A stretch of DNA of 64,000 nucleotides from Verrucomicrobia bacterium LW23 (GTDB taxonomy: Bacteria > Verrucomicrobiota > Verrucomicrobiia > Methylacidiphilales > UBA1321): positions 1 through 64,000 of the forward strand of contig QAZA01000050.1 of the NCBI GenBank assembly GCA_003054695.1. The letters run 5' to 3'. A model generated the notes under the pieces. The model was not told the DNA's origin. It made no database searches and was given only the letters and a program-made list of their open reading frames with translations. Both the position numbers and the translations under genes were made by a program. Of the stretch, positions 29,473 through 44,238 are shown piece by piece. Within the stretch, counting starts at the first letter, position 1; each line of letters opens with the position of its first letter.

Positions 29473-29814
29473 TTACTCGTCGTCGTCTTCTTCGAGAAGG
29501 CCGGGATTGTCGGCGAGCTTCTGCGAGAGCTTCATGACGCGGGACTTCATCTCCTTGCCGGCCTTGAACTTAACCACGGCGCGGGGCGGAATGGGCACGT
29601 CATTCTCGGGTTTATTGGGGTTACGGCCCACGCGCGCCTTGCGGAGCTTCACTTCGAAGACACCGAAGTTGCGCAGCTCTACGGACTGACCTTCCGAGAG
29701 GCTCTCGGTCAGGTAGTCGAGCGTTTTTTGGACCACATTGAGGACGTCCTGTTGGACCATCCCAGTTTCATTGCTGATCCTGATAACAAGATCGCGTTTC
29801 GTGAGGTTCGGCAT
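29473..29814 (-). CDS. IHF/HU family DNA-bending protein
   Basis: 113 residues. The N-terminus NLTKRDLVIRISNETGM and LRNFGVFEVKLRKARVGRNP carry the HU/IHF dimerisation helices and the beta-arm, with the intercalating proline in RNPNKP. The sequence RNFGVFEV with KARVGRNP is closer to IHF than to classical HU. The tail LADNPGLLEEDDDE is acidic and about 15 residues longer than usual. Such proteins bend DNA in the nucleoid and assist sigma-54 activation loops, relevant to the urt promoter region at 38.3-38.5 kb. It is monocistronic, with a palindrome upstream. Confidence 0.88.
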   Translation of the reverse strand: MPNLTKRDLVIRISNETGMVQQDVLNVVQKTLDYLTESLSEGQSVELRNFGVFEVKLRKARVGRNPNKPENDVPIPPRAVVKFKAGKEMKSRVMKLSQKLADNPGLLEEDDDE

Positions 29815-32426: not shown

Positions 32427-33944
32427 CTACGCCTGCAGCCGCCGGTAAAGGCGACTGCGGTGCATGCCCAGGCGCTTGGCGGCCTCGCTGACGTTGCCGC
32501 CGGTGGCCTCCATGGCGCGGCGAATGAGCTCTTCCTCGGCTTCTTTAACGTTAAAGGACTCGCCCGAAGCCAGCGGACCGCTGGATTTGGCCGCCGCGGG
32601 CAGGCTAACTGCCGGGGCCGCGGCGGATGCCATCGGCGCGATCGGCGCCGTATCGGCAACGGGCATGAGATAGAGGTGCTCGGTCGAAATGGGCCGACCG
32701 CCGCTCTCAATCAACGCACGCTCGATAATATTCTTGAGCTCGCGCACATTGCCGGGGAAGGAGTACGCGTTCAGCATCGCCTGCGCATCCGGGGTGATTT
32801 TCCGAGGGGCCATGCCCATCTCGCCGGCCAGCGTCAGCAGAAAATGCTCGGTCATCAGCGGCACGTCCTCCGGGCGCTGACGCAGCGGCACGGATTTGAT
32901 GATGTAACGCGCCAGGCGGTAGTAGAGATCCTGACGGAATCTGCCGGCCGCGATCTTGGCCTGGAGGTCGGCGTTTGTCGCCGCAACCACGCGTACATCA
33001 ACGCGTTGCGTCTGGTTGGCGCCGACGGGCAGCACCTCGCCATCCTCCAGCACGCGCAACAGTTTGGCCTGCAGCTGCAGGTCCATATCGCCTATTTCGT
33101 CGAGGAAAAGGGTGCCGCCGTCGGCAGTCTCAAAACAGCCTTTGCGGTCCGCCGTAGCGCCGGTAAACGCGCCTTTTTTGTGGCCGAAGAAGACGGACTC
33201 CGTAAGCTCGGCCGGGATGGCCGCGCAGTTGATGGGGATGAACGCGCCTTCCCTCCGATTGCCGCCGTAGTGCAAAGCCCTGGCTATCAGCTCCTTACCC
33301 GTGCCGCTTTCGCCGGTTATCAGCACGCTTACGTTGGAGAAGCTCTGCAGCTTTTCGATATCGCTGCGGATTTGCCGCGCTTCGGGGCTTTCGCCAATCA
33401 GCCCCTTTATACCCCAGCGCGTGGATGTCTGGGAGGAGAGCGTGAGCAGCTTTTCCTCGGCCGCGCGTTTGCCGCTCTCCGCAATGCGCCGTTTGGCTAT
33501 CTCGGCCTCCAGCTGCAAGTTGCGCTCCTTCAGCTCGCGCACCATGCGGCTGTTATCGCTGTGGGTGCGGATTCGCGCCAGCACCTCGGGCATGCGGAAA
33601 GGCTTGGCGATGTAATCCGCCGCGCCAATCTCAAAGCCGCGCAGCACGCTCTCGATCTCCTGGCGCGAGGTGACAAAGACGATGGGGATGTCCCGCGTGC
33701 GTTCATCGCCCTTCAGCGTCTCGCACACGGAGAAGCCGTCTTTGCCGGGCATAACCACATCCAGCAGAATAACATCCGGATGGATATTCTGCGCCACCTT
33801 AATCCCCTGCTCACCCCGGCTGGCGATAAACACTTCGTACCCGTGCGGCTCCAGCGTCTCCGTGAGAATATGGATATTCTCCGGGCTGTCGTCGATGACA
33901 AGGACTTTGGGCGCCGGCGCGGCTGGTGCGGTGGAGAGAGGCAT
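32427..33944 (-). CDS. sigma-54-dependent response regulator (NtrC type)
   Basis: 505 residues in three domains. The receiver has acidic residues D18/D19, phospho-acceptor D62 in LLDVVMPGKDG and K114. After a coiled linker (about 130-170) comes the AAA+ sigma-54 interaction domain with Walker A GESGTGKE (211-218) and the sigma-54-contacting GAFTGA loop (258-263). A Fis-type helix-turn-helix (GNVSEAAKRLGMHRSRLYRRL) ends the protein. It needs sigma-54 to activate transcription from enhancer sites. It is encoded 109 bp after the hybrid kinase and is the likely activator of the two -24/-12 promoters at 38.3-38.5 kb. Confidence 0.93.
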   Translation of the reverse strand: MPLSTAPAAPAPKVLVIDDSPENIHILTETLEPHGYEVFIASRGEQGIKVAQNIHPDVILLDVVMPGKDGFSVCETLKGDERTRDIPIVFVTSRQEIESVLRGFEIGAADYIAKPFRMPEVLARIRTHSDNSRMVRELKERNLQLEAEIAKRRIAESGKRAAEEKLLTLSSQTSTRWGIKGLIGESPEARQIRSDIEKLQSFSNVSVLITGESGTGKELIARALHYGGNRREGAFIPINCAAIPAELTESVFFGHKKGAFTGATADRKGCFETADGGTLFLDEIGDMDLQLQAKLLRVLEDGEVLPVGANQTQRVDVRVVAATNADLQAKIAAGRFRQDLYYRLARYIIKSVPLRQRPEDVPLMTEHFLLTLAGEMGMAPRKITPDAQAMLNAYSFPGNVRELKNIIERALIESGGRPISTEHLYLMPVADTAPIAPMASAAAPAVSLPAAAKSSGPLASGESFNVKEAEEELIRRAMEATGGNVSEAAKRLGMHRSRLYRRLQA

Positions 33945-34053: not shown

Positions 34054-36948
34054 TTAAGGATAAGATATTGTGTCTTCAACGCGCGCCTTTTGCGCGCCGG
34101 CCTCGATCGTTTCGTCGTCGGCCCCCTTTACGGGAATTTGCGCAATCATGGCCTGGATTGCAACCATATCGCAGCTGGAGAGGAAATCGCGCAGGTGCGC
34201 GGCCAGGCGCGCTTCGTCGGGGCCCAGCGCCTCCACCTCCTTAATGCATTTGCGCAGCACCGTCATGCTGTGCAGCTCGGCTGCCACTACCATGCGATCG
34301 ACCAGGCCCTCCGGCAGCGGCACGCCGGTAAGGTCCACCGTGCGCGCATCGCCGTCGCCCGCCTCGGCGGCGCGTTGCACAAACTGAACGCCCAGCAGGT
34401 CCGCCAGCGCGGCAAAGACCCGTTCCGCACGCACCGGCTTGGCGATAAAGTCATCGCAACCCGCCTTCAGGTACATGGCGCGCTCGTGCTCAAACGCGGA
34501 GGCCGACACGGCCACGATAACCGGAGAGCCCGGGCCGAGGCGCTGCTGGATATCGCGCACCGCCTCCAGCCCGCTGCCGGCGCCTAAGCGTATGTCCATA
34601 AACACGATGTCAAAGCGCGAGGCCTGCCGGGGGCGCATGGGCCGCACGGGCGCTACGGGTCGCGGAGCGCCCTCCGGCACCAGCACGGGCCGAGGCTCCG
34701 GCGGCGGAGCGGCGTAGTCGGTGCTATTGGCACCGAGGGATGCATCGCCCTGGGCCGGGGCGCACGCCCTGGCAATGGCTTCCGGCCCGTCCTCGGCCGT
34801 TTCCACTTCGCATCCGATCTTGCCCAGCATATGCGACAAAATGTCGCGATTCTCCCGCACATCATCCACAACCAGCGCCCGCACGCGGAAACCCGCAGCG
34901 AGGCGCTCGATCTCCTTCGCGTTCTCCTTAAGCGCCCGGCGCGCCGGCGGCAACGGCAGCGTAAAGCTGAAACGCGCGCCCCCCTCCGGCGGCGAGTCGA
35001 GCTGCAGGCGCCCGCCCATCACCTCCACCTGGCGGCGCGCAATGGCCAGCCCCAGGCCCGTGCCGCCGGCCGGCGTGCGCTGGGGCCCCTGCTGAAAGGG
35101 CTCGAAGACCATCTGCCGCATCTGCTCCGGGATGCCCGGCCCCGTGTCCAGCACTTCAAAAAAGACGAGCGGCGCAGCCTCCAAGGCGGACGCTGCCGCG
35201 GAGACCGGTGCCGCGCCCGCCCCCACGGCCGTCGTTGTGGCAGTGCCCGTGGGCGTGGGCGTGGCCGTCCCCTGCCCGCGCGCTTCCTGCCCTGCCTGCG
35301 CCTCGCGCCGAATCGTGACGCGCACGGAGCCCCTTTCCGTAAACTTGACCGCATTGCCAATAAGATTGATAAGCACCTGCCGGATCTTCCCCTCATCCCC
35401 ATGCACGGGAAAGGAGCGCTCGCGGTCGTCCATCAGGATCCGAAAGCCCAGCTTCTTCTCATCGCATTGCGGCTCAAACAGTTCCTCCATTTCCTCCAGC
35501 ATTTTGCGCAGGCGAAAGTCGGTCGGGTACAGCTCCATGCGTCCCGCGTCAATCTTGCTGAGATCCAGGATCTCGTTAATCAGCCGCAACATGTGGTCGG
35601 AGCTCTTGATAATCGTCCCAATTGCATCGCGCTGAAAGGGATGCAGCGCGGCATCGCGCGAAAGAATCTGCGCGTAGCCGAGGATGGCGTTGAGCGGTGT
35701 GCGGATCTCATGGCTCATATTGGCCAGAAACTCGCTCTTGGCCCGGTTGGCGCGCTCCGCCTCCTGCGTTTTGACGGCCAGGCTTTGCGTGCGGTCGTCC
35801 ACCTTCTGCTCCAGGCTCTCATTCGTCTCCCGCAGCTTGTTGGTGCCGTCCTGAATCTGCCCGATCATGGCGTTGAACGTATGGGCCAGCAGGGAGAACT
35901 CGTCCTTGCGCTGCTCCAGATCCACCCGCGCGCCCAGGTCCCCCTGCTCAATGCGGCGCGCCGCCTCCGTAAGCCGACTAAGCGGCTGATTGATGGACTG
36001 CGCCGCCACCTGCGCGCCCACAATAAAGAGCAACACCAGAATGGCCCCGCCGATCCACATACCCTGGCGCAGCTTGGCCGCCGGCGCAAAAATCTCGGAG
36101 ACATCCATCTTTACAATCAGCCCCCACCCCAGCGATGGCAGGTAGCGCGACACCGACAACACCTCCTGCCCCCGATAATCCCGCGTAACCGATTGCGTGC
36201 GCACGCCTTCCACCGCCGCCACCATGGCCGTGGGCGCCTGGGCCCTGGCAAAGCGCAGTCGAAACGCTGCGTCCGGCTTGTTGCGCAGTGGGGTGACGAC
36301 CACGATGCCCTCTGGCGTGGCCTGAATCATCACCGTCTCGCCCGTCTGGCCCAGGTTAGAGTAATCGCCGGCAACGCGGTAGATTTCCTCGTTGGAGAGA
36401 CGCGCCGCCACAATCCCGCAAACGGAGCCCTTTGAGTCGAAAACCGGCGCCGAGACGTAGACGGAGGGAATCTTCGTCGCTTCATCATAGGTGTAATCCG
36501 AAATCTCCGCGCTAAGCAACGTACGCGTGCGATCCACCGTCCGCGCCAGCTCCGGCGCCGGAACCTCCCCCGCCGTCTGCGCAAAGAGCAGCTTACCCTC
36601 TGGCGAGAACAGATATAAGTTGCTGTAACCACTGAGGTTATGCAAAAAATGAAAGAGCGCCTGCTTCTCCGGCGAATCCGGCGTCGCCGCCAGCAACATC
36701 GGCATATACGGCTGCGATGCAATCAGCTCCACCGCATATAACTTACTGCGCGCGTAAGCCTCAACCTTGCCCGCTTTATCATTAGCTATTGCTGCAAGAT
36801 TAGCCCAGGCCTGCTTACGCAACAATTGCTCACTATAACTGCTGGCAATAACGCCACCCACAATAAGCAAAGGAAGCGATATACAAAAAAATCGCCAAAA
36901 GAGATTCGCCGAAAGCGAATAGCGTGGATGCAGAGAGAACGTAAACAT
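34054..36948 (-). CDS. hybrid sensor histidine kinase with Cache-like sensor
   Basis: 964 residues. Membrane helices at about 13-35 and 300-322 enclose a periplasmic Cache-like sensor (VYVSAPVFDSKGSVCGIVAARLS). HAMP (about 325-378), a coiled coil and a HisKA domain with phospho-acceptor H413 in MSHEIRTPLN follow, then HATPase (DTGPGIP, GGTGLGLAI). A receiver has D695/D696 and D785 in VFMDIRLG. The distance between these acids is about 89 residues instead of about 45, because an Ala/Pro-rich segment (about 720-770) is inserted. The stop of the upstream binding-protein gene lies 22 bp before the start, suggesting the kinase reads the state of that periplasmic protein. Confidence 0.9.
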   Translation of the reverse strand: MFTFSLHPRYSLSANLFWRFFCISLPLLIVGGVIASSYSEQLLRKQAWANLAAIANDKAGKVEAYARSKLYAVELIASQPYMPMLLAATPDSPEKQALFHFLHNLSGYSNLYLFSPEGKLLFAQTAGEVPAPELARTVDRTRTLLSAEISDYTYDEATKIPSVYVSAPVFDSKGSVCGIVAARLSNEEIYRVAGDYSNLGQTGETVMIQATPEGIVVVTPLRNKPDAAFRLRFARAQAPTAMVAAVEGVRTQSVTRDYRGQEVLSVSRYLPSLGWGLIVKMDVSEIFAPAAKLRQGMWIGGAILVLLFIVGAQVAAQSINQPLSRLTEAARRIEQGDLGARVDLEQRKDEFSLLAHTFNAMIGQIQDGTNKLRETNESLEQKVDDRTQSLAVKTQEAERANRAKSEFLANMSHEIRTPLNAILGYAQILSRDAALHPFQRDAIGTIIKSSDHMLRLINEILDLSKIDAGRMELYPTDFRLRKMLEEMEELFEPQCDEKKLGFRILMDDRERSFPVHGDEGKIRQVLINLIGNAVKFTERGSVRVTIRREAQAGQEARGQGTATPTPTGTATTTAVGAGAAPVSAAASALEAAPLVFFEVLDTGPGIPEQMRQMVFEPFQQGPQRTPAGGTGLGLAIARRQVEVMGGRLQLDSPPEGGARFSFTLPLPPARRALKENAKEIERLAAGFRVRALVVDDVRENRDILSHMLGKIGCEVETAEDGPEAIARACAPAQGDASLGANSTDYAAPPPEPRPVLVPEGAPRPVAPVRPMRPRQASRFDIVFMDIRLGAGSGLEAVRDIQQRLGPGSPVIVAVSASAFEHERAMYLKAGCDDFIAKPVRAERVFAALADLLGVQFVQRAAEAGDGDARTVDLTGVPLPEGLVDRMVVAAELHSMTVLRKCIKEVEALGPDEARLAAHLRDFLSSCDMVAIQAMIAQIPVKGADDETIEAGAQKARVEDTISYP

Positions 36949-36970: not shown

Positions 36971-38260
36971 CTAGTTCATCCCCCCCTGCGTAGCGGGCCC
37001 GGGCGCGGACCAGTTTCTGTCCCATCGCGTATACAGCTGAAGTAAAAACGCCTCCCACTCGCTGCGCGATCGCGACAATGGAAACGGCTGCGGCCGGATC
37101 GGCCTGCGCGAATCCCACACAATCGAAAACTGTCCATCCAGCTCAATTCGACCCACTCGCACCGATCGCCACGAGTGCCGCGTCTCCTGATCAATCAGAA
37201 TAACCCCCTCCGGCGCCGCCATGCTTTGCCCCAAAATAGTACGCTGCACCGCCGCCGTCTCCTCCGTGCCCGCCTCCTCCACCGCCTGCGCCCACAACTT
37301 TACGGCACAATACGCCACCTCCATCGGGTCCGAGACAACACGCTCCCGGCCATAGCGCTGCTGAAAGGCGCGCACAAAAGTCCTGTTATTACCACCGGCC
37401 TGCGACTGAAAGTAATTCCACACCGCATAATCCCCCGCACAAGTGGCCGCATCCAGCGCCGGCAGCTCCGTCTCGCCAATGCTGAAGGACACAGTCGGGA
37501 CGTCCTTCGGGTGAATGCCGGCAGCGCGCAGCTCGCGAAAAAACGCCACGTTGGTATCGCCATTAATCGTGTTAAGAATCACATCGGGCGCCGCCGCCTT
37601 GATGCGCGCCACCACCTCCGCCAACCGGGCGCCACCGCCGCCCAGCGCCACATAGTCCTCCCCCACCACCTGCCCGCCCAGCGCCTTCAACTGGTCCTTA
37701 ATCACCGCGTTGGCAGCGTGCGGAAACACATAGTCCGAGCCAACCAGATACACCCGCGTGCCCAGGTTATCGAAGGTCCATTTGACGGCGGGGATAATTT
37801 GCTGATTAGGTGCCGCCCCCAGGTAAATGATGTTAGGCGATTGCTCAAGCCCCTCATACTGAACCGGATAGAACAACAGCCCGCCCCGTTGCTCAAAAAT
37901 CGGCGCCACCGTCTTGCGGCTCGCGGACGTCCAGCAGCCAAACACCGCACACACTTTCTCCCGCTCCAGCAAGTGCCGCGCAGCATCCGCAAAAACAGGC
38001 CCGCTGGAGCCGCCGTCCGCCCGCACCGCCTCCACCCGACGCCCGCCAAGCAGCCCGCCAGCCGCGTTAATCTCCTCAATCGCAAGCAGTTCCGCTTCCG
38101 CTACCGGCAACTCGGAAATAGCCATGGTGCCGGAAAAAGAGTGCAACACCCCCACGCGAATAGGGGGCGGCCCGTGGAGCGACGGAAAGGCAAGGCCCGA
38201 CGCCAGCGCCCCGCACAAAAGTACGAACATGGCGATGGCAAGGATGGATCTGGACTTCAT
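36971..38260 (-). CDS. UrtA-like periplasmic binding protein in sensor operon
   Basis: 429 residues from the ATG at 38260, with signal peptide SILAIAMFVLLCGALASG. It is a clear paralogue of the transporter UrtA at 38.6 kb: [49 protein letters not shown] and NTINGDTNV are shared. The ligand class is therefore urea or a short amide. Its operon holds a hybrid kinase and a sigma-54 regulator rather than permease genes, so I infer a sensory role. The C-terminal 50 residues (after RRPIRPQPF) are an extra basic/aromatic tail not seen in UrtA. Expression should depend on the minus-strand sigma-54 promoter at 38306-38320. Confidence 0.88.
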   Translation of the reverse strand: MKSRSILAIAMFVLLCGALASGLAFPSLHGPPPIRVGVLHSFSGTMAISELPVAEAELLAIEEINAAGGLLGGRRVEAVRADGGSSGPVFADAARHLLEREKVCAVFGCWTSASRKTVAPIFEQRGGLLFYPVQYEGLEQSPNIIYLGAAPNQQIIPAVKWTFDNLGTRVYLVGSDYVFPHAANAVIKDQLKALGGQVVGEDYVALGGGGARLAEVVARIKAAAPDVILNTINGDTNVAFFRELRAAGIHPKDVPTVSFSIGETELPALDAATCAGDYAVWNYFQSQAGGNNRTFVRAFQQRYGRERVVSDPMEVAYCAVKLWAQAVEEAGTEETAAVQRTILGQSMAAPEGVILIDQETRHSWRSVRVGRIELDGQFSIVWDSRRPIRPQPFPLSRSRSEWEAFLLQLYTRWDRNWSAPGPATQGGMN

Positions 38261-38305
38261 GTGCAGTGCCGCAGTCTCGGAGGAGGGGGGAAACAACGAC
38301 TTAGA

Positions 38306-38320
38306 GCAAGAATCGCGCCA
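38306..38320 (-). promoter_or_regulatory. sigma-54 (-24/-12) promoter of the sensor operon
   Basis: On the minus strand the sequence is TGGCGCG-ATTC-TTGC followed by T, against the consensus TGGCACG-N4-TTGCW: one mismatch, with GG and GC exactly 12 bp apart. The start site would be near 38294, about 35 bases before the binding-protein ATG. Confidence 0.72.
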
Positions 38321-38356
38321 CCATGTGGTAATTCGCCACACCTCCACCTGTCGCAC

Positions 38357-38382
38357 TGTCCTATTCAACCCGAAATAGGACA
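38357..38382. promoter_or_regulatory. 9+9 bp palindrome, likely enhancer of the sigma-54 activator
   Basis: TGTCCTATT (38357-38365) and AATAGGACA (38374-38382) are perfect inverted repeats with an 8-base spacer. The centre lies about 75 bp upstream of the predicted start on the minus side and about 150 bp upstream on the plus side, both in the usual enhancer range for NtrC-type activators. Confidence 0.6.
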
Positions 38383-38453
38383 CTTTACCCAACATGCCTT
38401 CGATCCTCACTTATAAACATAGTAATACTTAAATAAAAACCTAAAACCCTTTT

Positions 38454-38466
38454 CATCAACTACTTA
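38454..38466 (+). promoter_or_regulatory. IHF-like site between enhancer and urt promoter
   Basis: cATCAActacTTA matches WATCARN4TTR at all but the first position and is preceded by an A/T-rich tract (38411-38452). It lies between the palindrome and the plus-strand -24/-12 element, the usual place for the bend that loops an activator onto sigma-54 polymerase. Confidence 0.42.
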
Positions 38467-38495
38467 CCATCTATCCATATCTGCCGCGTGCGATA

Positions 38496-38510
38496 TGGCA
38501 TGCCCGCTGC
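38496..38510 (+). promoter_or_regulatory. sigma-54 (-24/-12) promoter of urtABCDE
   Basis: TGGCATG-CCCG-CTGC followed by TT matches the -24/-12 consensus with two differences, and the GG to GC distance is exactly 12 bp. The start would be about 38522, giving a leader of about 75 bases before urtA. Confidence 0.62.
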
Positions 38511-38596
38511 TTAAGGAAGGCCGTTCCCATGCTTAGTTCTTTCCTTAGGGGGCAAGAAACAAGCTGGATTTCTTCAGAACCACAAGCGCGTAACAC

Positions 38597-39874
38597 ATGA
38601 AAAAGATTATTAACTTCCTGAAGGCCGGGTTGATGATCCTTGGACTTGCCGCAACTATCCACGTTGCCCATGCCCAAGAAGACAAAGACACAGTTAAAGT
38701 AGGTATCCTCCACTCCCTGAGCGGCACAATGGCCATCAGCGAAACATCGCTACGCGATGTGGATCTCTTCGCCATTGATGAAATCAACAAGGCGGGTGGC
38801 GTACTGGGTAAAAAGATTGTGCCTGTTGTTGTTGATGGCGCTTCCGACTGGCCCCTCTTTGCCGAAAAAGCAAAGCAACTGCTGGAGCAGGATAAAGTAG
38901 CTGCGGTCTTTGGATGCTGGACATCCGTAAGCCGTAAATCGGTCCTGCCCGTATTCGAAAAGAACAACGGCCTCCTCTTCTATTCCGTACAATATGAAGG
39001 CGAAGAACTCTCCAAAAACATCTTCTATACTGCCGAAGCGGTCAATCAACAGGCCACACCTGCTGTCGATTACATGCTGGAGCAAGGAAAGAAGAAATTC
39101 TACCTGCTCGGCAGCGATTATGTGTACCCGCAAACCACCAACCTCGTCCTGCTGGAATATCTTCTGAGCAAAGGCGTACCGATCGAAAACATCGGTGGCG
39201 GCCTTCGTAAAGATGAAAGCGGCAAGGTAATCAGCGCTGGTCGCTACACACCCTTTGGTCACACCGATTATCAACAGATCGTTGCAGACATTAAGAAGTT
39301 TGCCGCCAGCGGCGATGCCTGTGTTATTAACACGCTTAACGGTGATACCAACGTCTCCTTCTTCAAGGAGTACGCCGCCGCCGGCCTGACCGCGGAAGAC
39401 TGCCCGGTTGTCTCCTTCTCCCTCTCGGAGGACGAGTTCCGCGCTCTCCCCGCCAAAGACCTCGTCGGCCAGCTCGGATGCTGGACCTACTTCATGTCTA
39501 TTGATACACCCGCCAACAAGAAGTTTATAGCCGACTTTAATACATGGCTCGCTGCCAGCAACGTTGCCGGCATCGTAAAAGAAAAGCGTGTTACCTGCAG
39601 CCCCATGGTACTTTCTTACAACGCCATCTACCTGTGGAAGGCGGCGGTCGAAAAAGCGGGAAGCTTTGATGTAGACAAAGTCCGTGAAGCTCTTGAATCC
39701 GGCACCATCTCTTTCGATGGCCCCGGCGGCAAAGTAACGTTCACCAAAAACCACCACATGACGAAGAACGTCTATATTGGTGAAACAATGGCTAACGGTC
39801 AGTTCAAGATCCTGAAGACCTTTGAGCAGGTTCCTGGTGAACCCTTCCTCAAAGGTACCTTTAAGGCCAAGTAA
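38597..39874 (+). CDS. urtA: urea ABC transporter, substrate-binding protein
   Basis: 425 residues with signal peptide [22 protein letters not shown]. It matches Urt[78 protein letters not shown] and the C-terminal [22 protein letters not shown]. It captures urea in the periplasm for UrtBC. Base composition is visibly lower in GC than the flanking genes, as is common for very highly expressed or selected transporter genes. It is the first gene of urtABCDE, with strong hairpins directly after its stop. Confidence 0.95.
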
Positions 39875-39877
39875 TAC

Positions 39878-39938
39878 TTCTGTTACGCTGTAACACAGAA
39901 TGAATCGTGGGGCGGGCAATTCTATAGGCCCGCTCCAC
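39878..39938 (+). terminator. two hairpins in the urtA-urtB gap (partial terminator or mRNA stabiliser)
   Basis: 39878-39900 pairs TTCTGTTAC with GTAACACAGAA (imperfect). 39907-39917 pairs with 39928-39938 (GTGGGGCGGGC / GCCCGCTCCAC, one wobble) around a 10-base loop. No T-tract follows. In binding-protein-dependent transport operons such structures raise binding-protein mRNA over permease mRNA. Confidence 0.55.
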
Positions 39939-39953
39939 CAACCCTCGTTCATC

Positions 39954-41579
39954 ATGAAACTGCTTTACCATAACATTACCAGACTACTTTTGCTGTTCCT
40001 GCTTGCTGGTACGTTAGGCCTCCATGCGCAAACACCATCCGGCGGCAATACCCGTCAACTCATTACGGAAGCAATACTCAGCAGTGGTGATGAACAGAAG
40101 AAAAAGATTAGTGAATTGATTAACGCCGACGATGTAGCCCTCACCAGCACCATTCTTACCAAGTGGCGAAAGAGCGAAGTCTATATAGCTACAGATGCCG
40201 GTGACAAGAAAGTACCTTATACTCTGGAAGAAGATAAACCCATACGTATAGATAATGGCCAGCCGCTCACCCTTCCACAAGGCAGCGCGGTAGAAACGGA
40301 CGGCGCTCTGCGCAAAGCAATCGCTTCCACACTCAATCTGCTCGGCATAGCCGACCCCGACCCGAAAGTCCGCCAGGGAGCAGTGGCCAAGCTGGGTGGG
40401 CAACAAAAGGCCGAATATGTCCCCCTGTTTAAGGCCCGCCTGGAGAAAGAAACGAATGCTCAGGTCAAGTACACTTTAAAAGAAGCTATAGCCATAACGG
40501 AGCTTGCCGACGCCTCTCCAGAAATCCAGACAGAAGCCCTCAAAACGCTCGGCTCTCTCTATTCAAAGCGGAGCGGCGACCTCCTTAAAAAGTTCGCAGG
40601 CGACCCCTCTGTACCAGAACGCCAGGCAGCTGCCAAATCCTCTTTGGTAAAGCTCGAAAACTACCTCTCTTTCTGCGAAACAATTGAGACGATGTTTCGT
40701 GGCGTTAACTACGGCTCCGTACTCCTGATTTCCGCACTTGGTCTTGCCATTACGTTCGGTCTTATGGGCGTTATTAATATGGCCCATGGCGAACTCATTG
40801 TTGTAGGCGCTTACTCTGTATATGTAATGGAAGGCTGGTTCACCAGAGCTTTCGGCGATGCGGGACTTCAATGGTACTTTATCGCAGCCATTCCCTTTGC
40901 CTTTGTTAATGCTGCCTTAGTAGGTCTTTTGCTGGAGCGTTCTGTCATTCGCTTCCTCTATAACCGGCCGCTGGAATCCCTGCTTGCTACCTGGGGTGTA
41001 TCGCTGGTGCTTCAACAATCCTTCCGCTATATCTTCGGTCCCAATAATGTGCCTATCAACTCGCCTTCGTGGCTCATTGGCAACTTTACTATTCTGGATA
41101 TCTCCTTTGCATACAATCGTATCTTTGTTGTCTGCTTTGCAGCCCTCATTATATTGCTTACCTGGCTACTTCTTACGAAAACACCGCTTGGCCTCTTAAT
41201 CCGCGCGGTGATGCAGAACCGTGAGATGGCGAGTTGTGTTGGCGTTCGCACCGCTCAGGTCAACATGCTTACCTTTGCGTTCGGAAGCGGCCTGGCCGGT
41301 CTCGCAGGGGCCTTTCTTGCACAACTTGGGAACGTGGGCCCCAATCTCGGGCAGGCCTACATTATCGACTGCTTTATGACAGTAGTTGTTGGTGGTGTTG
41401 GTAATATCATAGGCACGGTATGCTCGGCAATCTCCATAGGTGTTGCCACACAAACATTGGAGCAAGTGTTGCAGAACTCTGTTCTTGGCAAAATTACTGT
41501 GCTTATCACCATCATTCTCTTTCTGCAAATCCGGCCCGGTGGTCTCTTTCCCACTAAAGGTCGCGGCCTTGAGGATTAA
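39954..41579 (+). CDS. urtB: urea ABC transporter, permease UrtB
   Basis: 541 residues from the ATG at 39954. A signal peptide ([15 protein letters not shown]) precedes an extracytoplasmic helical, HEAT-like region of about 220 residues (for example [14 protein letters not shown] and [13 protein letters not shown]). A LivH-type permease of about eight helices follows, with [19 protein letters not shown] and [16 protein letters not shown]. The long N-terminal extension is typical of UrtB and absent from LivH. With UrtC it forms the urea channel in the inner membrane. Confidence 0.94.
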
Positions 41580-41581
41580 TC

Positions 41582-42739
41582 ATGACTCAATCCAAATTAC
41601 CCCTGTCTTCGGAGCATATTGCTATTATTGTAATAGCATTTCTCGGAATAGTGGTGGCTCCGTACCTCAATACATTACCACCCACAAGCTGGCTTTACAT
41701 CAGTGATTTTACTTTAAATCTCTGGGGCAAGTATCTTACGCTTGCTATTCTGGCCATCAGCGTTGATCTCCTCTGGGGTTATACCGGCCTTCTCAGCCTG
41801 GGGCAAAGCCTCTTCTTCATTTTGGGTGGCTACGCATTTGGTATGTATCTGATGCTCCAGATCGGAGTATTAGGACAGTCCAAGTCCGAGCTGCCCGACT
41901 TTATGGTGTTTCTTGGTTATACACAATTGCCCTGGTTCTGGCGGGCCTCTCACAGCTTCTGGTTTTCTGTCCTTGCTGCTTTATGGGTACCGGCACTTGT
42001 TGCGCTTGTGTTTGGATATCTGGCCTTTCGTTCGCGTATCAAAGGCGTCTATTTCTCCATACTCACGCAGGCTCTTACCTATGCCGCTTGTTTGATGTTC
42101 TTCCGCAACGATACCGCGATGGGCGGCAACAACGGGTTTACTGATTTTAAACTTATATTGGGTTATGATATACGAGCCCCTGAAACGCAACGCGCATTAT
42201 ATATCATAACAGCAACAACGTTGCTGCTTATTTACCTGGGTTGTCGCTGGCTTACATCTACCAAGTTTGGCAAGGTCCAGCAGGCTATTCGCGATAGTGA
42301 AAATCGGGTTCTGTTCAGCGGTTACTCCACTGTTAGCTACAAACTCTTTATCTTTGTACTAAGCAGCATGATTGCCGGTATTGGTGGAATGCTCTATGTT
42401 CCTCAGGTTGGCATCATCAACCCTAGCGACATGGCTCCGGATAAATCTCTGGAAGCTGTTGTGTGGGTTGCCGTTGGAGGTCGGGGTACTCTTGTAGGGC
42501 CTATTGTGGGGGCTGTTAGTGTTAACGCATTGCGCAGCTATTCTACAACGGCATTTCCGGAGTACTGGCTCTTCCTTCAGGGTCTTGTTTTTATTCTGGT
42601 TGTATTGTTTCTTCCCAAAGGCCTTGTTGGGCTGTGGACGTCTATTGTGGAGTATATCTCCAAACAGGAAGGCGGTCTTCGCGGCGTATGGGCTTCGGTT
42701 ATGGAGTCCCTTATGAAACGGAAAGGAGCCACCAAATGA
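41582..42739 (+). CDS. urtC: urea ABC transporter, permease UrtC
   Basis: 385 residues, LivM-type inner-membrane permease. Landmarks are [59 protein letters not shown] and [14 protein letters not shown]. It starts two bases after urtB and overlaps urtD by 4 bp (ATGA), so the permease and ATPase genes are translationally coupled. The C-terminal 40 residues after PKGLVGLW are a soluble helix. Confidence 0.94.
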
Positions 42740-43524
42740 AGCACCTTGTACAAGCGGGTGAGAAGCCTACGCATCATGATTTTATACTTGCGGCGGAAGG
42801 TGTGAACAAGGTTTTTGATGGTTTTAAAGCCATTACAAATCTCAACTTCTATATGGATGAAGGTGAACTTCGCACCGTAATCGGCCCCAATGGTGCGGGT
42901 AAAACCACCTTTATGGATCTGATTACTGGCAGAACGAAGCCTACCTCAGGCAAGATTACTTTTGCGGGCAACATTGAGCTTAACCCTTTATCGGCGGATC
43001 AGATTTATCGTCTGGGTATCGGGCGCAAGTTTCAGAATCCGACCGTCTATATACATCACACTGTGTATGATAATCTGCTTCTCTCGCTAAAGGGGAGTCG
43101 CTCTGTCTTCTCTACCTTGTTTGGAAAGGTTACGTCTACAGATAAGGATCGCATTTATTCGATCCTCGAGACGATCGGGCTTACCGAATGTGTCCACATG
43201 CTGGCGGGGACTCTTGCGCACGGCAAGAAGCAATGGCTGGAGATTGGCATGTTGCTTGCGCAGGATGCGCGATTGTTGCTGGTCGACGAGCCCGCGGCCG
43301 GCCTCAGCGACGAGGAGACAGCGAAGACGGGGGAGTTGCTGCTTAGCCTTGCCGGAAAGCACAGCCTGATTGTTATTGAGCACGACATGGTGTTTGTGCG
43401 GCAAATCGCGAAGAAAGTGACCGTGTTGCATCAGGGTTCGATCCTTTGCGAGGGCACTGTGGACGAGGTGCAGAATAATGAGCGCGTGCGCGAGGTGTAC
43501 CTGGGGCGTAAGGCGGCCCACTAA
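42736..43524 (+). CDS. urtD: urea ABC transporter, ATPase UrtD
   Basis: 262 residues from the ATG at 42736, preceded by AAAGGAG and overlapping the urtC stop. Walker [11 protein letters not shown]-loop RKFQNPTVY, signature-like [15 protein letters not shown], Walker [16 protein letters not shown] and H-switch IEHDMVF are intact. It hydrolyses ATP with UrtE to drive urea import. A longer in-frame start lies inside urtC and is not supported. Confidence 0.94.
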
Positions 43525-43545
43525 CCGGCCTATCTGGAGAAACTT

Positions 43546-44238
43546 ATGTTGTTGAGCATTAAGGATATCGATGTTTCCATCGCGGGCTCCCGCATCCTGC
43601 GGGGCGTAACGTTCGACATCCCCAGAAACAAGGTGCTGTGCCTGATGGGGCGCAACGGCGTGGGCAAAACGACGACGTTGAAGACACTGATGGGCCTGCG
43701 CAAGCCTTCCGGTGGCGCTATCACCCTGGAAGACAACGACATAACGTCGTGGCGATCTGAACGGCGGGTGCTGAACGGGCTTGCCTATGTGCCGCAGGGG
43801 CGTGATATTTTTCCGACGCTGACAGTGTGGGAGAATCTCAAGATCAGTCAGGTGGCCACAGGCAAATATGACTCGGCTGTACTGGATCGTGTGTTCACCT
43901 TATTTCCCGTACTTAAGGAGATGCTTGGACGCAAGGGGGGTGTGCTGAGCGGTGGTCAGCAGCAACAGCTTGCGATTGGTCGTGCGCTTTTGACGCAACC
44001 CCGCCTGTTGATTCTGGACGAGCCGACGGAAGGTATTCAACCGAACATTATCGACCAGATTGGCGACGCGATTAAAAGCCTTAAGGGCGATATGAGTATA
44101 CTGCTTGTTGAGCAATACCTGGATTTTGCAAAGGACCTGGGCGACTATTTTGTTATTCTTAATCGCGGCTCCGTAGTGGCCAACGGCGAGATTGCCGGGC
44201 TTACGCAAGATGTTGTTGCGGAGCATCTTACAGTATAG
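43546..44238 (+). CDS. urtE: urea ABC transporter, ATPase UrtE
   Basis: 230 residues, LivF-type ATPase: Walker A GRNGVGKTT, Q-loop YVPQGRDIFPTLTVWENL, signature LSGGQQQQLAIGRALL, Walker B LLILDEPTEGIQPNI and H/Q-switch VEQYLDFA. GRDIFPTLTV is the form typical of UrtE. It is the last urt gene; no urease or urea amidolyase gene is in the window, so urea must be hydrolysed by enzymes encoded elsewhere. Confidence 0.94.
   Translation: MLLSIKDIDVSIAGSRILRGVTFDIPRNKVLCLMGRNGVGKTTTLKTLMGLRKPSGGAITLEDNDITSWRSERRVLNGLAYVPQGRDIFPTLTVWENLKISQVATGKYDSAVLDRVFTLFPVLKEMLGRKGGVLSGGQQQQLAIGRALLTQPRLLILDEPTEGIQPNIIDQIGDAIKSLKGDMSILLVEQYLDFAKDLGDYFVILNRGSVVANGEIAGLTQDVVAEHLTV

Follow-up and report, generated by a model that had tools for sequence, protein, structure and literature searches.

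The DNA analysed here, a stretch of 64 kb referred to as the window, contains two divergent operons separated by 336 bp of intergenic DNA (Table 1). The leftward, minus-strand operon encodes a sensor system consisting of an UrtA-like binding protein, a hybrid histidine kinase and an NtrC-type response regulator, and the rightward, plus-strand operon is urtABCDE. The UrtA-like protein scores 477 bits against TIGR03407, just under the cut-off of 492.75; its closest solved structure is 8tg1, and it also resembles urea-binding proteins and AmiC (1pea). The regulator has the features of a sigma-54 activator, with a PF00158 match at E = 2e-67 and GAFTGA read in the translation, and its N-terminal receiver (PF00072) and C-terminal Fis-type helix-turn-helix (HTH; PF02954) both score above cut-off. 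In UrtB (39900-41579), the permease domain is preceded by a long N-terminal extension that matches HEAT repeats. No known RNA was found in the window with Rfam.

Table 1. Features of the divergent locus and of the operators in the paralogous cluster
Feature	Position	Strand	Description
HU/IHF-family gene	29536-29805	-	Sole one found in the genome
NtrC-type response regulator	32427-33944	-	Pfam: receiver, sigma-54 AAA+ with GAFTGA, Fis-type HTH
Hybrid histidine kinase	34054-36948	-	Pfam: dCache, HAMP, HisKA, HATPase, receiver
UrtA-like periplasmic binding protein, probable sensor partner	36971-38260	-	429 aa; Peripla_BP_5
Predicted -24/-12 (sigma-54) promoter, sensor operon	38305-38320	-	TGGCGCG-ATTC-TTGC-T = TGGCGCGATTCTTGCT, read from 38320 down to 38305
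Candidate second weak site	38324-38340		TGTGGTAATTCGCCACA; 17 bp, 5+5 arms; short arms, could be chance
Candidate extra half-site	38349-38354	+	TGTCGC; 8 bp ahead of the palindrome and spanning 34 bp with its far ACA
Palindrome, probable upstream activating site of the adjacent regulator	38357-38382		26 bp; TGTCCTATT-N8-AATAGGACA, TGT...ACA ends
IHF-consensus-like match	38454-38466	+	CATCAACTACTTA; 12 of 13 positions of WATCARNNNNTTR
Predicted -24/-12 (sigma-54) promoter, urtABCDE	38496-38511	+	TGGCATG-CCCG-CTGC-T = TGGCATGCCCGCTGCT
urtABCDE, urea ABC transporter operon	38597-44238	+	NCBIfam UrtA to UrtE, all five above curated cut-offs
Operator, allophanate hydrolase	L039 1070-1095 (G000:C25)		
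Operator, biuret amidohydrolase/urease genes	L039 8203-8237 (G000:C25)		35 bp; outer half-sites TGTTGC/GCAACA, inner TGTCCT/AGGACA

Predicted promoters and a palindrome in the intergenic region

An initial annotation had listed a minus-strand and a plus-strand sigma-54 promoter, a palindrome and an IHF site in this region, and all four elements are present within a few bases of where it placed them. Chance expectation was modeled with dinucleotide shuffles of the 336-bp intergenic region (n = 2000 unless noted), and promoter scores come from approximate weights that we assigned to the published -24/-12 consensus. Both boxes have the GG and GC dinucleotides at -24/-12 spacing together with the surrounding consensus. 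The minus-strand box, with a predicted +1 near 38294, reaches the full score under this approximate weighting (p = 0.0005 for an equal score in 2000 shuffles), and no other site in the 64-kb window equals it. The plus-strand box, with a predicted +1 near 38522, scores 21.7 of 23.2. In shuffles of the intergenic region, a single site of this score has p = 0.005, and a pair of sites that both equal or exceed it turned up in 0 of 2000. With rpoN present in the genome as a single copy and a GAFTGA activator encoded next to the region, the proposal of two divergent sigma-54 promoters is supported. Neither a sigma-70-like promoter nor a terminator-like site was found between 38200 and 38700.

A 23-codon ORF (38529-38600, plus strand) is preceded by AAGGAAGG, and its stop overlaps the urtA start as ATGA. 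For urtA itself we see no clear ribosome site, and translational coupling of the two frames is possible. The predicted sigma-54 start falls 3' of the AAGGAAGG stretch, which would leave AAGGAAGG outside the transcript. It is conceivable that only the minus-strand promoter is sigma-54 dependent, in which case a different promoter would drive urtABCDE and the plus-strand box would be a near match; that box does read CTGC instead of TTGC, and the start at 38522 comes just after what is otherwise a good ribosome site for the 23-aa leader. We regard this as unlikely, given how rarely the shuffled region yields a site of the plus-box score, the absence of any sigma-70-like site from the searched interval, and the similar boxes with imperfect -12 elements used by relatives.

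The palindrome consists of two perfect 9-bp arms, TGTCCTATT (38357-38365) and AATAGGACA (38374-38382), around the 8-bp spacer CAACCCGA, and its centre lies at -75.5 relative to the predicted minus-strand start and -152.5 relative to the plus-strand one. An inverted repeat with arms of at least 9 bp anywhere in the region has p = 0.008 (500 shuffles), and a TGT-anchored palindrome matching at 8/8 positions in the length classes of the regulator family appeared in 0 of 2000 shuffles. In this spacing range, the TGTCCT/AGGACA pair is found at three places in the 6.6-Mb genome: the window, a CheA-type ORF (C16), and the inner pair of a 35-bp operator in a paralogous biuret/urease cluster, the last being the sole non-coding occurrence besides that in the window. 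A looser 26-mer search returned, apart from the CheA-type ORF match, only a 2-mismatch match at C56:427898; because a reversed control pattern gave 17 matches, such loose matching is uninformative. Two further candidates adjoin the palindrome. TGTCGC half-sites like the one upstream of it are found in operators of relatives (L220, L221 and L224, and as GCGACA in L223 and L225-L227), and the 17-mer TGTGGTAATTCGCCACA overlaps about -30 to -46 of the sensor promoter; neither is an established element.

The shuffles place the promoters and the palindrome beyond chance, but not the IHF match. A match of at least 12 of 13 positions has p = 0.40 (2000 shuffles), the window holds 41 of them, and only four relatives (L223, L224, L228 and L218) have one of equal quality in the operator-promoter interval. 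Being neither above chance nor conserved, the IHF site drops out of the control region as first drawn: with most relatives having none, we reject CATCAACTACTTA as an unsupported candidate, and it is probably not a functional element. The window does encode an HU/IHF-family protein, as had been noted; by score it is nearer to IHF than to HU models, yet it falls below every curated cut-off.

Operators of the regulator clade in related genomes

Among 384 genomes of the class, 24 (the window's own included) encode a member of the regulator clade, at 51-60% identity. The neighbouring genes include a related kinase and often isochorismatase-type hydrolases, a cupin, allophanate hydrolase, urease or urtABCDE. 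When the intergenic regions of these loci were scanned for inverted repeats anchored by TGT, at every length from 16 to 44, matches clustered at 17, 25, 26, 34 and 35 bp. Fourteen of the 24 loci have a palindrome of one of these five lengths in the first 300 bp past the regulator gene (shuffle mean 0.14, maximum 2 of 24), and the other 24 lengths combined give a match in 1 of 24; as the length classes were chosen after seeing the data, the argument lies in the contrast with other lengths and with shuffles and carries no p-value. In 13 target regions, the operator is centred 115-122 bp ahead of the +1 predicted from the -24/-12 candidate with the highest score, with exceptions at L209 (-110/-133) and L039 (about -208/-210). 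The length class broadly tracks the HTH sequence: regulators reading VNRSR or close to it have operators of 17, 26 or 35 bp, mostly with TGTTGC, and those reading VHRTR have operators of 25 or 34 bp, mostly with TGTTTC. The window regulator reads MHRSR, and L220 and L221, which read IHRSR, have TGTCGC outer half-sites.

Judged by this pattern, the window palindrome is typical in some respects and atypical in others. Clade operators run from TGT to ACA over 17, 25/26 or 34/35 bp, and the window site has these ends at 26 bp (8/8). Its arms are not close to TGTTGC or TGTTTC, and its centre is not about 120 bp from either start. The idea of one palindrome serving both divergent promoters is supported by the length class and the ends; the palindrome is probably the upstream activating site of the adjacent regulator, common to both promoters. 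The earlier label of a textbook sigma-54 region suits the promoter boxes but not the operator geometry, which in the clade takes 25/26- and 34/35-bp forms with half-sites in 8-9-bp steps.

The exact divergent arrangement of sensor operon and urtABCDE occurs in no other genome searched. The nearest substitute for an orthologous intergenic region is L209 (G382), where urtA (83% identical) and allophanate hydrolase are divergent and the DNA separating them has a -24/-12 box for each and a single palindrome; by analogy, it agrees with a shared-site design. Orthologues of the UrtA-like sensor in G005, G007, G008 and G009 adjoin a dCache kinase together with a receiver protein; the similarity of that protein to the window regulator ends before most of the sigma-54 domain, and no close transport UrtA was seen in these four genomes. 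A scan of the named genomes with the sensor protein returned mostly ordinary transport UrtA. One sequence titled as a Bacteroidetes bacterium (L063, CAJCII010000132.1) is apparently the same contig as G005:C132, from a same-family relative of the window, and that title is wrong if the window is of Verrucomicrobiota type.

The clade palindrome was not seen upstream of most other urt operons, so this type of regulator does not control urt in general. In a few of them, -24/-12-like boxes occur in its absence. At L231, L232 and L244, such boxes are found some 1 kb before urtA, close to the preceding gene and without the clade palindrome; these urt operons are perhaps under sigma-54 through another activator. 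In seven related genomes (L209 and L214-L219), a -24/-12 box (score 21.7) precedes the kinase-core match by about 1.05-1.15 kb, which places it close to where the kinase gene should begin. None of these seven boxes has a clade-type palindrome in the preceding 220 bp, and these sensor operons are perhaps under sigma-54 via an activator site of another kind.

A paralogous cluster, a chimeric kinase and a proposed uptake switch

The same genome encodes a paralogue of the window regulator (58% identical; L039 on G000:C25) that adjoins allophanate hydrolase, biuret amidohydrolase and urease, each above the equivalog cut-off; these functions are assigned from sequence families only. Both operators of this cluster (Table 1) are centred about 208-210 bp from the best -24/-12 candidate, compared with about 120 bp in relatives. 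In the tree, the window regulator sits on a long branch (0.74) in a group with this paralogue and one relative of the same family (support 91/87).

The kinase has two halves of different affinity. Residues 1-380 are 54-58% identical to kinases beside UrtA-like sensor orthologues in four genomes of the same family (L059-L062). At the threshold applied, they matched none of the regulator-clade kinases, of which the two checked both have a CHASE sensor. For residues 381-964, the closest sequence is the paralogue's kinase (47.5%, 469 bits), and the sensor-linked kinases reach 193-223 bits. The protein looks like a domain swap, joining a binding-protein-linked sensor half to a catalytic half of the biuret/urea clade. 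Together with the regulator tree, the two halves fit duplication, sensor swap and faster change, an order of events that we infer.

We think it likely that the intergenic DNA is the control region of a dedicated switch for uptake of urea or small amides, in which the sensor operon and urtABCDE are both activated via the palindrome. The UrtA-like protein would sense a urea-type ligand in the periplasm and signal through the dCache domain of the hybrid kinase, which would phosphorylate the NtrC-type regulator. Bound to the 26-bp palindrome, the regulator would activate sigma-54 polymerase at both promoters by DNA looping, leftward on its own sensor operon (positive autoregulation) and rightward on urtABCDE. 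Given two back-to-back promoters and one site of the clade pattern, the sensor probably activates its own expression together with that of the transporter. The regulator itself may have arisen by duplication of a biuret/allophanate/urea regulator. In sum, the promoters and the shared site are real, and they probably work as first proposed.

The kinship with the paralogue also allows the palindrome to be read as a site bound mainly by the regulator of the biuret/urease cluster, which would then control urea uptake while the local regulator has other targets. Their 58% identity and the TGTCCT/AGGACA pair inside the 35-bp operator speak for such cross-control, but the outer half-sites TGTTGC/GCAACA of that operator are absent at the window palindrome and the regulator encoded beside it is the simpler candidate, which makes this quite improbable. 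That the palindrome is a repressor operator or another structure without a part in sigma-54 activation is very hard to credit: its arms are unlike the consensus half-sites of the clade, but its length class and TGT...ACA ends are exactly those of the clade, it lies upstream of both -24/-12 boxes, and the region has no terminator-like site.

Returning to the switch driven by the local regulator, a broader reading can be offered, to which we give slightly less credence than doubt. The use of biuret, allophanate and urea may be governed by a widespread family of sigma-54 regulators, apparently not yet described, with operators built from half-sites in 8-9-bp steps, so that interleaved 25/26-bp dyads form 34/35-bp sites. 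In this lineage, a duplicate would have been rewired by a kinase sensor swap and a half-site shift to TGTCCT, giving a largely insulated urea-uptake switch with one inner site still common with the parent cluster. No description of the regulator clade or its operator was found in the open literature, most subscription papers lying outside its coverage. The more interesting result lies in the relatives: an operator code for the biuret/urea regulator clade, plus the apparently rewired duplicate in the window. Such a code is computable for a clade that probably governs the use of urea and biuret (a fertiliser impurity) in a little-studied bacterial class, and with two paralogues in one genome, the rewiring of a duplicated two-component system, with a new sensor, a changed operator and a new target, could be traced.

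Comparison with known systems

The window regulator resembles NtrC-family activators in its receiver, AAA+ domain with GAFTGA, Fis-type HTH and the placement of palindromic sites ahead of -24/-12 promoters. Whereas the classic NtrC dyad spans 17 bp, most clade operators measure 25/26 or 34/35 bp and have half-sites spaced in steps of 8-9 bp, and the clade is linked to biuret/urea genes and not to glnA/ntrB. The AmiC/AmiR system of Pseudomonas aeruginosa likewise uses an UrtA/AmiC-type binding protein as the sensor of a regulator, and AmiC is a homologue of the window protein. AmiC works with the antiterminator AmiR in the cytoplasm; in contrast, the window has a predicted periplasmic protein with a membrane kinase and a sigma-54 activator. 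The transporter has the same five subunits as known UrtABCDE systems, but its operon is divergent from a dedicated binding-protein-linked two-component operon. The biuret/allophanate clusters with a CHASE-type hybrid kinase and an NtrC-type regulator (such as L039 and L209) share the regulator clade, the kinase catalytic core and the operator geometry, while the window has a dCache domain and an UrtA-like partner in place of CHASE, and its predicted target is the transporter.
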